Notes under the pieces: generated by a model | Databases searched by the model: none | Told to the model about the DNA's origin: nothing | The model's input: only the letters and a program-made list of their open reading frames with translations | Made by a program: the position numbers and the translations under genes | Part shown: positions 7,362 to 62,724 of the stretch, one piece after another | Numbering within the stretch: position 1 is the stretch's first letter | Layout of the letters: each line of letters opens with the position of its first letter | From: Anaerolineales bacterium | GTDB taxonomy: Bacteria > Chloroflexota > Anaerolineae > Anaerolineales > Villigracilaceae | Reading direction: 5' to 3' | NCBI GenBank assembly: GCA_020851785.1 | Contig: JADZCC010000034.1 | Location: 62,001 to 126,000, forward strand | DNA length: 64,000 bases

Positions 7362-7516
7362 TTTAATTGCTCACCTTACGCAGTTTTGCGAAAATTCGTA
7401 AATTTCCCCTCATCCCCAGCCCTTCTCCCGGCGGAGAAGGGAGTCCCCTCTCCCTTTGGGACGTGTGCCCGTAGGGTAGAGGTTTAGGGTGAGGGCGCGT
7501 AAGGTGAGTTAATTAA
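7362..7516. repeat. MITE-like palindromic element, family R1 copy 1
   Basis: Terminal inverted repeats ttaattgctcaccttacgc / gcgtaaggtgagttaattaa around a core cccctcatccccagcccttctcccggcggagaaggga...gggacgtgtgcccgtagggtagagg. Confidence 0.75.
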
Positions 7517-20432: not shown

Positions 20433-23432
20433 TTAGAACCCTTCCAGCTTGCTGAAATCCGCAACGCCGGTAGCCTGCGCGGCAATTCTTTGCAGTAAGC
20501 CCAGCCGGTTTTCGCGCACTTTCTGGTCTTCCGCCATCACCATCACCTTTTCAAAAAAGGCGTTGATTTCCGGCGTCAACTTCACCACAACCTTCAAAAA
20601 TCCTTCAACAGAAAACGACTGACTGCTGATGGCTTTTACCTGCGCGTATAAATCCTTTTCTTCTTTTTCAACCAGCCGGGCCTCATCCACTTTGAAAGTT
20701 TGTTTTTGATCGCGGGTGATACGAACACACCGCGCAAACGTGGCGAGGATGGCAGACCAATCTTCGCGCTTCACCCACGCCGAAAGCTGGTCCAACGACC
20801 AGACACAGGCCGCCGGGTTGGAGGCTTGTTCCGCCAAAACCGCTTCTACCTGATCGTGCTTGTAGCCCAGGTCTTTCAGCGTCACCGCCAAACGCCCGGC
20901 AATAAATTCCAGAATTTGTTTCTGCGCTTCATCCGTAACTTCAATCGGCTGAAGGCTCGCCGAAACCTTAACGATGTCTTTCAGATTAAATTGTTTTTTG
21001 TGTTCAATCAAAGGTTGCACCACGCCAATCGCGGCGCGGCGCAAGCCAAACGGGTCTTTGGTTCCGGTGGGCGCTAAACCAGCGGCAAATAAACCAACCA
21101 ACGAATCGATTCGATCCGCCAGCGCGATGGCCAGACCGGCCTGAGTCTGCGGGACGGTTTGATATTGCTCGCTGATTGCGTCTGCCACTTCCTTAGATTC
21201 GCCGCTTCGCAAAGCGTATTCGCCGCCAATGATGCCTTGCAGGGACGTCATCTCAGTGACCATTTGAGTGACAAGGTCGGCTTTCATTAAATAGGCGGCT
21301 CTTTGAGTAATTGGCAATTGGTTATTGGTAATTCCTAATAACGGTGCAATTTCTTTAACTAATTTGGCTATGCGCTCGGATTTATCCAGCATGGAGCCGA
21401 GTTTGGCGTGGAAGGTCAACGTCGCCAGCTTGGGGCGATATTCTTCGAGTTTGAGTTTCACATCTTCACGGACGAAGAAGTTTGCGTCGGCAAAGCGCGC
21501 GCCGAGGACGTGTTCATTCCCTTCGCGGACGGTGTCAATGCCGATGTCGTCGCCGTTGCGAATGGCGATGAAGTGCGGCAACAATCCCTCACCCCGTCTC
21601 GCTCCGCTCAACTCCCCTCTCCCAGCGGAAGAGGGGGCGGGGGTGAGGGGAAAATATCTTTGGTGCTTTTTCATCACCGAAATCAAAACATCTTTTGGCA
21701 GTTGAAGAAATTCAGGGTCGAAGCCGCCCATGACGGCGGTGGGCATTTCAACGAGGTTGGCGACTTCGCTCAGCAAACCTTCTTCAATAATGGCTGTACC
21801 GCCGACTAACTCTGCGGCTTGTTTGGCTTGTTCGATAATCGAATTTTTTCTTTCTTCTTTATCTAAGATGATGCCTGCTGTACGAATCACATCGAAATAC
21901 TGATCCGCAGATGGGATTTTGATTTCAGGAGAATCGTAAGGGCGTAATCCGCGACTGACATTACCTGAAACGACGCCAGCATATTCAAACGGGATGACTT
22001 GGTCGCCGAGTAAGGCAACGTACCAACGAATGGGACGGGAGAACGCAACGCCTGAAGCATTCCAGCGCATGGATTTTTCAAACTTGACGCTTTCCACAAG
22101 TTTGGGCAGGGCTTCCTGCAAAACCTCGGGCGTAGGTTTGCCTTTTTGTTTGACCACAGCGAAGACATATTTGCCTCCGCCCTCTTCGCGAATTTCTAAA
22201 GCAGATGGGTCAATGTTATTTTTCTTGGCGAAACCTAAACCGGCTTGTGTGGGTTTGCCATCTTTATCTATTGCTTTATCGGCAGGCGGGCCTTTGACGA
22301 CTTCTTCGCGGTCGGGCTGATGCGGGGCGAGAGAGTCAATAGAAACAACGATCCGCCTTGGGGTAGTAAAGATGCGGATGTCTTGATGGTCAAGGTGAAG
22401 TTCATCGAAGAGTTGCGAGATACGAGTTATGAGAAACGCGTAAGCGGAGTCCACATCACTAGCTGGAAGTTCTTCGACGCCGATTTCTAAGAGAAAGGTC
22501 GAAGGTCGAAGGTCAAAGGTTGAAGGTAACGATAGACTTGTGACCTGTGACTTGTGACTTTCTTTCAACAACGGATATTCAAGGCTCTTCCTTTGCTCTT
22601 CATAACTTTCGGCGACGCGTTTGGCCAGTTCGCGCATACGACGGAAAAAGGCCTGACGTTCGGCAACCGAAATTGCGCCGCGCGTGTCGAGCACGTTGAA
22701 CATGTGCGAGCATTTCAACACATAATCATGGGCGGGGACGATCAGATTTTGCGCGAGACAGGCATCGGCTTCGGCGGAAAATAAAGCATACATCTGGCGA
22801 ATGCGTTCGACGTCGGCGGTTTCAAAATAATATTTGGAATGTTCAAATTCTTCTTGACGGCGAATTTCACCGTACGTAACGCCCGCGCCGTATTCCTCAT
22901 TCCAAATCGCTTTGGCATTGTTGAGCGCAATTAAAATTCTTTCAAGCCCATACGTAATTTCAACCGAGATGGGGTCCAGCGCCACGCCACCCATCTGTTG
23001 AAAATAAGTGAACTGCGTGATCTCTTGCCCATCGAGCCAAACTTCCCAACCCAGCCCCCAAGCGGAGATGGCGGGCTGTTCCCAATTATCTTCCACAAAA
23101 CGGATGTCATGCTGGCGCGGATCAATGCCGAGGGCTTTGAGCGAATCAAGATACAGTTCCTGCGGATTGCTGGGGTCGGGCTTGAGGATGACTTGAAACT
23201 GGGTGTGGAGTTGAAAACGATTTGGGTTTTCGCCATAACGTCCATCGTCGGGTCGAACAGATGGTTCGACGTAGGCCACGTTCCACGGTTCGGGTCCAAG
23301 GACGCGCAAAAAGGTATTGGGATTCATCGTGCCCGCGCCAACTTGCGTGTAATACGGCTGGGTAATCAGGCATCCGTGCGACGCCCAGAAGTTTTGTAGT
23401 TTGAGGATGATGGATTGGAAGGAGGAAGGCAT
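20433..23432 (-). CDS. glyS: Glycyl-tRNA synthetase, fused alpha+beta subunits (GlyQS)
   Basis: Alpha: [47 protein letters not shown]. Beta: [23 protein letters not shown]...[12 protein letters not shown]. Single 999-aa ORF. Confidence 0.95.
21586..21652. repeat. R1-type palindromic element, in frame inside glyS
   Basis: ccctcaccccgtctcgctccgctcaactcccctctcccagcggaagagggggcgggggtgagggg; translates as [22 protein letters not shown]. Confidence 0.7.
22494..22562. repeat. Low-complexity repeat forming the GlyRS alpha-beta linker
   Basis: gaaaggtcgaaggtcgaaggtcaaaggttgaaggtaacgatagacttgtgacctgtgacttgtgactt. Confidence 0.7.
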
Positions 23433-24533: not shown

Positions 24534-26105
24534 CTACGGGGACGAGCGGGCGCAACGGAAGCCAACGACAGTGCTTGCATACGAAAGACCGCTACTAAGG
24601 CGGTTAATCATACGTATATCGCTAACATCACTCCATGAGCCGCCGCGTAAGATGCGAAATGTACCAGAACCCGGACCTTGTGGGTTTAAAACAGGCGAGT
24701 TTTGATAATATTTTTCAGCATACCAATCCGCCACCCATTCCCAAACATTGCCCGCCATATTGTACATGCCATACGGGCTTTTTCCGCTTTCATAACCCGT
24801 CACTTCGGTTGTATCACCTATGCAACTGGCATAGTTAGCCTGACCACAAGCGCTATTTTCACCCCACGGATACGTCCTGCCGTCCGTGCCTCGGGCGGCT
24901 TTTTCCCATTGAGCTTCGGTGGGTAAACTGGCATCGCGCCACTTGCAGTATGCATTGGCTTGGTTCCAGTCCACGTTGACTACCGGGTAATTATCAAACT
25001 GTGAATTACCGTAATAACTATCACGAGTGGAGGAGCCTATATCTTGTGGCGGGGTACAGCCGCCTGTCTTCACACAGGCTTTGTAAGCGGCGTTGGTCAC
25101 TTCGTAGATATCCATGTAGAAGGCGTCGAGATATACCAAGTGAAGCGGTTTTTCATCTTCTTCGCTGTTATTGCTTCCCATTGCAAATTGGCCTGCCGGT
25201 ACAAGTCCCATTTTTATGTCTTTGTCATCGGTGATTTCAGCAGGCAACGATGTAGGCACAGGTGTTTGAGAAGCGGGTATTTGAGTCTCTGTAGGCGTAG
25301 GTGAAAATATCTTTATAAACCAAGGCGAACTGATCAGCGCGGCAAGGATTGTGCCGACCAGTCCGATCAACGCGACGATGACGGCAGTCTTCGGCTTGCG
25401 GGGTGGGTTTGTTTTCTTCGGTTCAGGTTTGGCGGGCTGAGGTTTTTCAGGCGCTGACTTTTCCTGATTGCCAAAATTGATTACGTTGCCGCTACCTGAA
25501 ACGATCACGCTCCCTTTTACATCGCCGCCAACATCCACGTTATCTGGCGCGGGAGTGGGATGCGTTTGAGGTTTAGGTTTTACTTCTTTTGGTTCGGGGA
25601 ATTTCTTTTCTTCAACAACCGGCTTAATCTCAATAGTTGTTTCACCCGCTTTGGGCAATTGCACTGTGGCGCGTTCCAACTGCGAGGCGCGCAGTTTCAG
25701 AGACTGCATCAGTTTGGTATAGCCCGCCTTTTCATACAAATCCACGGCGTGATATTTTTTCAAACTAAAGGGCAGTTCGCATTCCTCGAGCCGCGCAGGG
25801 ATGATGAAGATGCGTCCATCCGGCATTTCCATCGCTTTGTCTAAAGCGAACTTGATTTCCTTTTGGACGTAGCCCTCTTTATCCACCGAGTTTGGGCTTA
25901 GACAAATGATGATTGCGTCCGAGGAATGCAGAGCCTTCGGGATTTCCACTTCCCAATTCTGCCCGGGAATCAAATCCTCCGCATCCAGCCAGGGTTGGAC
26001 GCCGCGCCGCTTCAAGGCGCGGTACAACTCCCGCACCTTCGGCTTGTCGGCGGAGGCGTGGCAAAGGAAGACTTTGAGGGGGCGTTTTTGGTCAGCGGAC
26101 TTCAT
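24534..26105 (-). CDS. TIR domain - TM - FGE/sulfatase-modifying-factor-like domain protein
   Basis: TIR: KVFLCHASADKPKVRELYRALKRRGVQPWLDAEDLIPGQNWEVEIPKALHSSDAIIICLSPNSV. TM: TAVIVALIGLVGTILAALI. FGE: FYMDIYEVTNAAYKACV, LPTEAQWEKAARG, YPWG, NMAGNVWEWVADWY, LRGGSWSD, VVGFRCA. Confidence 0.92.
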   Translation of the reverse strand: MKSADQKRPLKVFLCHASADKPKVRELYRALKRRGVQPWLDAEDLIPGQNWEVEIPKALHSSDAIIICLSPNSVDKEGYVQKEIKFALDKAMEMPDGRIFIIPARLEECELPFSLKKYHAVDLYEKAGYTKLMQSLKLRASQLERATVQLPKAGETTIEIKPVVEEKKFPEPKEVKPKPQTHPTPAPDNVDVGGDVKGSVIVSGSGNVINFGNQEKSAPEKPQPAKPEPKKTNPPRKPKTAVIVALIGLVGTILAALISSPWFIKIFSPTPTETQIPASQTPVPTSLPAEITDDKDIKMGLVPAGQFAMGSNNSEEDEKPLHLVYLDAFYMDIYEVTNAAYKACVKTGGCTPPQDIGSSTRDSYYGNSQFDNYPVVNVDWNQANAYCKWRDASLPTEAQWEKAARGTDGRTYPWGENSACGQANYASCIGDTTEVTGYESGKSPYGMYNMAGNVWEWVADWYAEKYYQNSPVLNPQGPGSGTFRILRGGSWSDVSDIRMINRLSSGLSYASTVVGFRCARSSP

Positions 26106-26197
26106 AACGGATTCGCGGAGTCAAACGGATTTTAGTCCCATACATGGGGCAATTATACATGCTGAGTCCGGTTTTATCCGCAATTCTACGAGAGCGT

Positions 26198-26447
26198 CAT
26201 TCACAAGTTCAACGCAAAGGCGCAAAGTGAAACTCAACCAACTCATATCTTGAGTCCGTTTTCATCCGCTATTCCGTGAAAAAGTTCGCTTACCTATCCG
26301 CTATTCCGTGAAAGAATCCGCTTACCCATCCGCTACTCCGTAACAGAGTCCATTCACAAACTCAACGCAAAGGCGCAAAGTGAAATTCAACCAACTCATA
26401 TCCTGAGTCCGTTTTTATCCGCTATTCCGTGAAAAAGTCCGTTTACC
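26198..26447. repeat. Tandem duplication of a 97-bp unit (153-bp period) containing R2-type repeats
   Basis: 26198-26294 and 26351-26447 differ at about 7 positions by eye; internal tatccgctattccgtgaaa units. Confidence 0.8.
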
Positions 26448-59361: not shown

Positions 59362-59727
59362 TCACCCGCCTGCAATTTTGACTTTATATCCCAGCTTAAT
59401 CAAAATCTCTGCAATTTTTTGGCGGTGTTCGCCTTGAATTTCAATCACGCCATCTTTAATCGTCCCGCCCGTGCCGCATTGTTGCTTCAACTTCTTTGCC
59501 AGGGCCTTCATATCCTCTGCATTTAATGCAAGATTCTTCACCAAAGAAACAGGCGTGCCATTCCGCCCGCTGGTCTCACGGTGCAGATAAATCGTCTGTT
59601 GTTGTGGCGGCAGAGATTCCCCTCTCCTCAAAGGACGTGTGCCCGTTAGGGTAGAGGGGTTAGGGGTGAGGTTTTGTTTTTTTCTTAAATCTCCAGATTC
59701 AGAAGACCAAACCGTTTTATTTGACAT
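59362..59727 (-). CDS. yciH: SUI1/eIF1-like translation factor YciH with repeat-derived N-terminal insert
   Basis: MKALAKKLKQQCGTGGTIKDGVIEIQGEHRQKIAEILIKLGYKVKIAGG. Confidence 0.9.
   Translation of the reverse strand: MSNKTVWSSESGDLRKKQNLTPNPSTLTGTRPLRRGESLPPQQQTIYLHRETSGRNGTPVSLVKNLALNAEDMKALAKKLKQQCGTGGTIKDGVIEIQGEHRQKIAEILIKLGYKVKIAGG
59618..59675. repeat. R1-type palindromic element, in frame inside yciH
   Basis: ttcccctctcctcaaaggacgtgtgcccgttagggtagaggggttaggggtgaggtttt; shares ggacgtgtgcccgt(t)agggtagagg with 7458-7482. Confidence 0.8.
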
Positions 59728-59741
59728 AAATCCATTATAAA

Positions 59742-61487: not shown

Positions 61488-61776
61488 GTTTGTCCTTTTT
61501 ATTTCGTCATTATGAATGTGGTTTCGATACGCCGCAACCCTGAAAATCATCAGGGCAAGCAAACAAGAACGCGGCTACTCAACCACCAATTTCACGATGA
61601 CATGTCATTGGGACGTTTTGACAACTCTGTTTTACTTCTTTCTTGCTATTCAAGATTGCTTTTTCAAGCAATCTCACCCAACAAAAAAGCCCGATGATTT
61701 CAGCGGGCTTGGCGTTTAGAGCGGGTCAAAACATTTTCCCAGAAAATTACAACGGGCTGAGTTTACCACAGAATTT

Positions 61777-61882
61777 GTAAACGGACTCTATCACGAATTC
61801 ACGGAAACAAACGGATTTGTGGGAGCGAATGGAAACCGATTTGTCCGTTATTGTCCGCGAATCCGCGACAAAGTCCGTTTAC
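61777..61882. repeat. MITE-like element, family R2
   Basis: Inverted termini gtaaacggactctatcacgaattcacgga / tccgcgaatccgcgacaaagtccgtttac. Confidence 0.75.
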
Positions 61883-62724
61883 ATGGTCATTAATACAATC
61901 GCAATCAAAGCGGAGACTACGCCCACCCATTGATTGCGGTTGAGTCTTTCTTTGAGGAAGATGGACGCGAGCAACACCGTTGCGCCCGGGAAGAGCGAGC
62001 TTAACACCGCGGCGACATCCAATCGGCCGGTTTGGGTGGCGAGGATGAAAAAACCGTTGCCGGTCAAATCCAGGATGCCGTTGAGAAAGATCGCCGGCAA
62101 GACGGTCGCTTTTTCAAGTTGAAAGGATGTTTTTGTAATCAGCATATAAATCAACAAAAAGGAAACGCTGGCCACGCGGGAAATCACCATGGGCCAAATC
62201 ACTCCGCCCGCGCCCGTGGCCTGATGGACAAAGACAAAGTAACAGCCAAATCCAAGGCCGGCCAGCAGAGGCAGCTTCAGGTCTACAAGGTGCGAGCGGA
62301 TATTTTTGATTCCATCTTCGCCTTGTGAAATCACCCAAATGGACAGGAGCGCAAAGACGAATCCAACCAATATCAAATAATTTGGCAAGCCCTGTGTGAC
62401 GATGCCGACGATGACGGGAATGAGCGCCGCCAATAACGCTGAGACTGGGGCGGCTATGCTCATCAACCCTTTGGACATGGCGGCGTAAAGAAAGATCAGG
62501 CCCATTACGCCAAACAGCCCGGCCATGAACGCCAACCCAACATCTCGCGGAGATGGAAACGCTTCATTGCTCCTGAGCGCTAAAAGGCCAACTGCAACCA
62601 GCCCAACCACAGACGCATAAAACACGGCGCGGACTGCGCCAACGCTTCGCGCCGCCAGCCCGCCGGTAAAATCGCCTGCGCCCCAACTGAACGCGGATAA
62701 TAATCCGTAAACGATGGATAACAA
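61879..62724 (-). CDS. EamA/DMT-family transporter
   Basis: Ten hydrophobic segments in two repeats; TTG start preceded by GAGGAGCTACC. Confidence 0.85.
   Translation of the reverse strand: MLSIVYGLLSAFSWGAGDFTGGLAARSVGAVRAVFYASVVGLVAVGLLALRSNEAFPSPRDVGLAFMAGLFGVMGLIFLYAAMSKGLMSIAAPVSALLAALIPVIVGIVTQGLPNYLILVGFVFALLSIWVISQGEDGIKNIRSHLVDLKLPLLAGLGFGCYFVFVHQATGAGGVIWPMVISRVASVSFLLIYMLITKTSFQLEKATVLPAIFLNGILDLTGNGFFILATQTGRLDVAAVLSSLFPGATVLLASIFLKERLNRNQWVGVVSALIAIVLMTM

Follow-up and report, generated by a model that had tools for sequence, protein, structure and literature searches.

Rickettsia, Wolbachia and some Proteobacteria are the main bacteria in which palindromic repeats have been found in frame within protein-coding genes. 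Such repeats are established for the first two genera (RPE and WPE; Ogata et al., 2000, 2005; reviewed in PMC2229807), and a Gmk enzyme bearing an RPE has been shown to be active (PMC2229807). Intragenic REPs with a GTAG/CGTC tag, which are 20–40-bp palindromes, single or paired, coding for 20–30 amino acids in genes for DNA repair and tRNA synthetases, among others, include a case in which two recB genes of Xanthomonas species were hit at approximately the same site (PMC3733652).

Here, we analyzed a 64,000-nucleotide stretch of the draft genome of an Anaerolineales bacterium (hereafter, the window), in which a repeat of this general kind lies in frame within yciH. Similar to RPEs and WPEs, it belongs to a set of selfish palindromes that occupy intergenic DNA and also lie in frame in conserved housekeeping genes, in exposed segments of the proteins. 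The likeness is one of kind and no membership of the Rickettsia families is claimed: the host is a member of the Chloroflexota, the C/G-rich sequence appears unrelated by inspection, the units are ~35–55 bp long whereas those of RPE/WPE are 100–150 bp, and some members of the Anaerolineales family reside in a MITE that has target duplications. As in Rickettsia, sites are common to relatives and a hotspot explanation is debated against an old insertion; however, all orthologues are filled there, which made the two explanations difficult to distinguish (PMC3767692), whereas filled and empty yciH orthologues are interleaved here. Unlike the intragenic REPs, the unit lacks a GTAG/CGTC tag at the foot of its stem, which by inspection of the aligned units reads CCTCACCCC / GGGGTGAGG, and no RAYT lies near the listed copies in the same genome. 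Finally, the intergenic copy at 7370-7508 and ~20 others have inverted ends like bacterial MITEs (PMC2229807, PMC10969869), but the copy in yciH and most other coding copies consist of the inner hairpin alone. Judged from the open-licence literature, with an earlier report on the same repeat being possible, this is a new phylum for a known kind of element, in which empty sites occur alongside filled ones. The interleaving of filled and empty orthologues in one genus, across dozens of genomes, makes recurrent insertion directly testable. In addition, housekeeping proteins of a wide group may carry repeat-coded peptides, which annotation and structure prediction should expect.

A palindromic repeat in frame within yciH

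The minus-strand ORF listed first in Table 1 translates without a stop as MSNKTVWSSESGDLRKKQ-NLTPNPSTLTGTRPLRRGES-LPPQQQ..., and its product was identified as a YciH/SUI1 protein by matches to PDB 1d1r (E. coli YciH; 9e-17) and to NCBIfam TIGR01158 (100 bits, under the curated cut-off of 111.65). The SUI1 core starts at approximately residue 39 and runs to its C-terminal GYKVKIAGG end, and residues ~19–38 are repeat-coded; the repeat thus lies in frame, with the native N-terminus on one side and the core on the other, as the initial annotation had proposed. One predicted tryptic peptide across the repeat is QNLTPNPSTLTGTR.

Table 1. Coordinates, strand and supporting evidence of the features analyzed in the window.
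Feature	Position	Strand	Evidence
yciH/SUI1-family gene with in-frame repeat, 121 aa	59362..59727	-	ORF; PDB and NCBIfam matches
Palindromic repeat, 53 bp, coding strand CCTCACCCCTAACCCCTCT...AGGAGAGGGG	59619..59671	-	covariance-model match
18-nt expansion ACGTGTGCCCGTTAGGGT in the hairpin, marking the 'R1' variant	59635..59652	.	unit alignment
TATAAT box, 6 nt before the yciH ATG	59734..59739	-	kept in most genus members
Intergenic MITE with terminal inverted repeats CTCACCTTACGC (7370-7381 / 7497-7508), two hairpins inside and flanking duplication TTAATT	7370..7508	+	
R1 core inside the MITE, lacking one base relative to the yciH copy	7458..7482	+	
Second in-frame family copy in the window, in glyS (ORF 20433-23432, minus)	21614..21648	+	

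The 25-mer GGACGTGTGCCCGTTAGGGTAGAGG is located at 59633-59657 (+), and chance can be excluded as its source (none of 100 shuffles gave a hit, even when 3 mismatches were allowed). As RNA, the yciH repeat is predicted to form a hairpin of -22.2 kcal/mol (z -3.6), with a CCCCUCU/AGAGGGG stem that is made longer by the 18-nt ACGTGTGCCCGTTAGGGT. Other copies read GGG^AGAGGG where this expansion sits, and its length is a multiple of three. No Rfam match was found at the yciH locus. Although the genome is a draft, an assembly artefact is unlikely, because inserts at the same site occur in independent assemblies.

In the AlphaFold model of YciH (mean pLDDT 61.6, a modest value), a SUI1-like core is present past residue 44, and pLDDT is ~50 or less for the N-terminus and the repeat-coded residues; the model puts the repeat-coded segment in a disordered state next to a core that folds. 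Outside the repeat, yciH is under strong purifying selection in the filled lineages: dN is 0.04 against a dS of ~1.6 between the window and its nearest relative, and filled-site lineages compared with near relatives gave dN values of 0.016–0.06 and dS values of 0.85–1.7.

The repeat family in this genome and beyond

The tally of copies in the draft genome (3.2 Mb, 114 contigs) was made from covariance-model searches and extracted stretches. The family unit of its copies is CCCYTCTCC-loop-GGAGARGGG-NTRGGGRTGAGG, present singly or in head-to-head pairs. The covariance model gave 170 matches, which merged with pattern hits into at least 85 loci, so that the family is a dispersed many-copy palindrome as RPE-like repeats are. 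Long open frames contain 26 of these loci; three (C17:50922, C55:8839 and C77:33262) proved on inspection to be spurious or to lie upstream of the real start and were discarded, and ~23 loci in 21 genes were kept. MITE ends were found nearby, by a loose criterion, at 35 of the at least 85 loci, and 24 are bare intergenic copies. Across 57 genomes of the genus, matches per genome range from 0 to 144 (lower bounds because of the filters applied), a spread as expected for a mobile repeat that is active or was so recently. In a sample of 201 genomes from the phylum, 121 match the repeat model. Two further copies were observed along the way: the 18-nt 'R1' variant in frame at the C-terminus (LTPTPSTLTGTRPARRGE) of an MBL-fold-like protein of another species (L225, G010), and a MITE-ended copy in frame within a 524-aa, membrane-protein-like open frame of the same genome as the window (L019).

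The initial annotation had described the yciH repeat as the second in-frame capture within 64 kb. The copy in glyS does belong to the same family, but it lacks the 18-nt expansion of the 'R1' 25-mer, so that this 25-mer represents one variant within a larger family of hairpins and not the unit itself. The accompanying suggestion that coding capture is frequent is borne out by the genome-wide tally, and the many other coding copies remove the objection that yciH might stand alone.

Based on PDB, NCBIfam or Pfam matches, the hosts of coding copies include dihydropyrimidinase, GGT, kynureninase, GatB, GlyS, YciH, a GAF protein, MetH, MutS, acyl-CoA dehydrogenase, HsdR, KdpB, PyrC, LysK, ArgH, UvrD, TrpC and a GFO/IDH oxidoreductase. 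Alignments with homologues continue on both sides of the repeat, opposite which the homologue shows a gap, for example in ArgH (17 aa) and KdpB (13 aa), and PDB, Pfam or NCBIfam alignments likewise traverse the inserts in GatB, MutS, GGT and others. For yciH, compared with its relatives, and for ArgH, GatB, KdpB and MutS, compared with PDB sequences, a repeat in frame in a conserved gene is missing from the counterparts, as is typical of RPE-like elements. Frames and strands vary among the host genes (LTPNPSP.., SPLTPLP.., SPLLLGEGPGVR.., PSPFGRGVRGEG.., PHPQPFSQ..), indicating that no single peptide is reused and that a stop-free frame is what survives. With no peptide conserved across the coding copies, these sequences speak for tolerance of selfish DNA in flexible segments, not for domestication.

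MITE form and mobility

MITEs with both ends are 96–141 bp long. Terminal inverted repeats are present in the 7370-7508 copy and ~20 others, most of them flanked by A+T-rich direct repeats (target duplications) of 7–9 bp. Judging from these ends and duplications, some transposase that acts on CTCACCTTACG ends must move the MITE form. The genome, in which inverted ends mostly pair at ~100–140 bp without a conspicuous IS-sized pair, yielded no autonomous parent, and no transposase lies next to copies among the matches listed. A RAYT was considered as the mobiliser and rejected: the five PF01797 (Y1 transposase-like) genes of the genome are at least 7 kb from the listed copies or on copy-free contigs.

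The relation proposed initially between the yciH repeat and the intergenic element at 7458-7482 holds at the level of sequence, as the match is nearly exact with one T missing from the intergenic copy. It does not extend to the form of the two copies, since the intergenic one lies inside a MITE with inverted repeats and a target duplication and the one in yciH, though from the same family, is a hairpin alone. No CTCACCTTACG end occurs within 110 bp of the yciH copy and no flanking direct repeat was seen at its insertion site, which points to a mode of insertion other than that of the MITE. Bare hairpins in other genes likewise have neither inverted ends nor target duplications.

Empty and filled yciH sites among relatives

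To place the insert, YciH was searched in 61 genomes, of which 41 gave a match (a few via the repeat peptide or a fragment alone), and the set was extended by 20 named Anaerolineales/Chloroflexota loci. The alignment with relatives that the initial annotation had called for revealed both states of the site. The closest relatives (G014, G023 and G004) are repeat-free and have a short linker, e.g., QSASHTK, and most further relatives also keep the short form, empty sites having linkers of 6–8 residues with ..SHTK/SHAK... Five other genomes carry copies of their own at the same place (G033, G005, G032 and the named genomes L073 and L074), giving six filled sites in total. Loop sequences vary among the inserts, and the window copy is the 18-nt variant common in its own genome. 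The YciH insert of L073 (1495-1863) has a further sequence, ACTTCGACAAGCTCAGCGCGGCG, within its palindrome, which looks like a nested insertion at this hotspot.

In the protein tree, the YciH of the window nests among empty relatives, and its grouping with G023 and G004 has a support of 100/86. On trees built without the linker, from protein as well as DNA, the distribution of the repeat takes five changes by parsimony. The AU test rejected a single clade of all six filled sites (p = 3e-80) and a clade of the window with G033, G005 and G032 (p = 4e-4); the mutual separation of the latter three was supported on protein (p = 0.003) and less firmly on DNA (p = 0.07). These trees suggest that the repeat was gained at yciH independently at least three times on a safe count, and five times by parsimony.

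The right junction, 2 nt from GAGAGGGG to a Ser codon, is identical in all six filled sites, as are the orientation and the frame of the right arm, and the left junction is exactly common to four of the six. A toy null model gave this coincidence of junctions in 0 of 100,000 cases, a figure that is not a probability because frame and linker length limit which real insertions persist. The native SH(T/A)(K/R) motif is present in empty sites of both main clades and missing from all filled sites, indicating that the repeat replaced the linker. The identical junctions and the lost linker suggest that the replacement may have come about by template switching or by a directed event.

Origin of the yciH insert

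The explanation that we favor, with a probability of about 0.8, is that the yciH insert stems from a short, selfish palindrome multiplying in this genome and genus, a copy of which entered the gene recently and is tolerated as a disordered linker. The repeat would have entered recently, because the closest sequenced relatives have an empty site, and would have taken the place of the native linker of 6–8 codons, its orientation and phase creating no stop. The protein would then carry ~19 disordered residues between its N-terminal segment and the SUI1 core, with selection holding the remaining YciH unchanged. Copies would spread at the DNA level, most likely through mobilisation in trans or through template switching, and the repeat-coded peptide would be translated and tolerated.

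This explanation could be extended if the linker DNA itself, through a target sequence or through microhomology with the repeat ends, directs the insertion, an addition that we put forward tentatively. Targeted or recurrent replacement would account for the five changes and the rejected clades, for the shared orientation, right-arm frame and junctions, and for the loss from filled sites of an SH(T/A)K linker that empty sites of different clades have in common. However, the microhomology of the linker to the repeat end is weak (5–7 of 8 bases) and equal matches occur elsewhere in yciH, and selection for a frame-keeping, linker-sized insert could by itself narrow the junctions.

Identical junctions in several species might also reflect one ancestral insertion into yciH, followed by loss in most lineages or by recombination of yciH between lineages; the RPE-4/6/7 sites of Rickettsia have been explained by ancestral insertion and divergence (PMC3767692). 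Such a history is already disfavoured and appears improbable here, as the native linker motif of empty sites in different clades could hardly be restored after loss, the filled alleles lie apart on the gene trees (the split among G033, G005 and G032 alone being less certain, with the DNA AU value given above), and the inserts differ in their loops, that of the window matching the common variant of its own genome.

Domestication, which the initial annotation had suggested, is just as improbable in our view. A selected function of the repeat peptide, such as a longer linker, contact with RNA or the ribosome, or an mRNA hairpin that slows translation, would fit the recurrent gain at one site, the right arm that is always read in the same frame (..RGE) and the stability of the mRNA hairpin. 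Yet most relatives, including the closest, lack the insert, other genes read the repeat in other frames and in both orientations, and the AlphaFold model shows no structure for the insert. The selfish repeat tolerated in a flexible linker remains our preferred reading on these grounds.

The idea that the repeat is an untranslated leader, with YciH starting downstream of it, can be set aside almost entirely: almost 40 residues do precede the SUI1 core, and the PDB and NCBIfam matches begin past the repeat, but the N-terminal MSNKTVWSSESGDLRKK is conserved throughout the genus and beyond, a TATAAT box stands at a constant distance from the upstream ATG, and the first alternative in-frame start is, by inspection, already within the SUI1 core. 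The use of a downstream start had been raised initially as what would undo the in-frame claim; the conserved TVWSSESGDLRKK N-terminus and the TATAAT box, both upstream of the repeat, instead place the start codon of yciH (59727) ahead of it, and the repeat is almost certainly translated. From the position of the TATAAT box, the yciH mRNA is probably leaderless. The spacing from TATAAT to ATG (59728-59739 in the window; loci L151-L171) is fixed at 6 nt in most genus members, and a leaderless yciH would suggest that the message for a translation initiation factor itself lacks a leader.

A DUF559 domain within MetH and other repeats

Outside the window, MetH of the same genome (L221 1611-5738, contig C60) is a 1376-aa protein with an in-frame DUF559 domain (PF04480) between its pterin- and B12-binding domains, and a further repeat is present in its homocysteine-methyltransferase domain. 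DUF559 occupies the same site in MetH of eight species of the genus (this one and seven others), and repeat-coded peptides flank it on both sides in all eight. The insert has a dN of ~0.08–0.29 against a dS that is >1.3 or saturated, indicating that the nuclease-like domain is conserved, with purifying selection acting on it; the structure model of the insert is weak (mean pLDDT 42.5). In the open-licence literature, we found no paper linking DUF559 with methionine synthase, and the matches to DUF559 together with 'palindromic' were unrelated by title. DUF559 was rejected as a general partner of the repeat, as none of 30 standalone loci had repeats on both sides and 3 of 30 had one on either side.

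The repeat family might enter coding linkers by a directed, replacement-type mechanism, with at least three and probably five Anaerolineales lineages having independently exchanged the yciH linker for different copies at identical or near-identical junctions; the framing of DUF559 in MetH of the same genus could then point to a nuclease-assisted route, although we regard this reading as doubtful.

DUF559 fragments also occur in tandem over ~1.8 kb elsewhere in the genome (L181-L183; C10:55165-56930), and similar clusters were observed in G016 (C1:964-978 kb), G028 (C5), G001 and G074. In addition, the window contains a separate repeat family, GTCCGTTTTTATCCGCTATTCCGTGAAAAAGTCCGTTTAC and its inverse, at 26091-26446 and 61776-61883, with six direct copies and a 40-nt inverted pair, the latter at 61776-61883.
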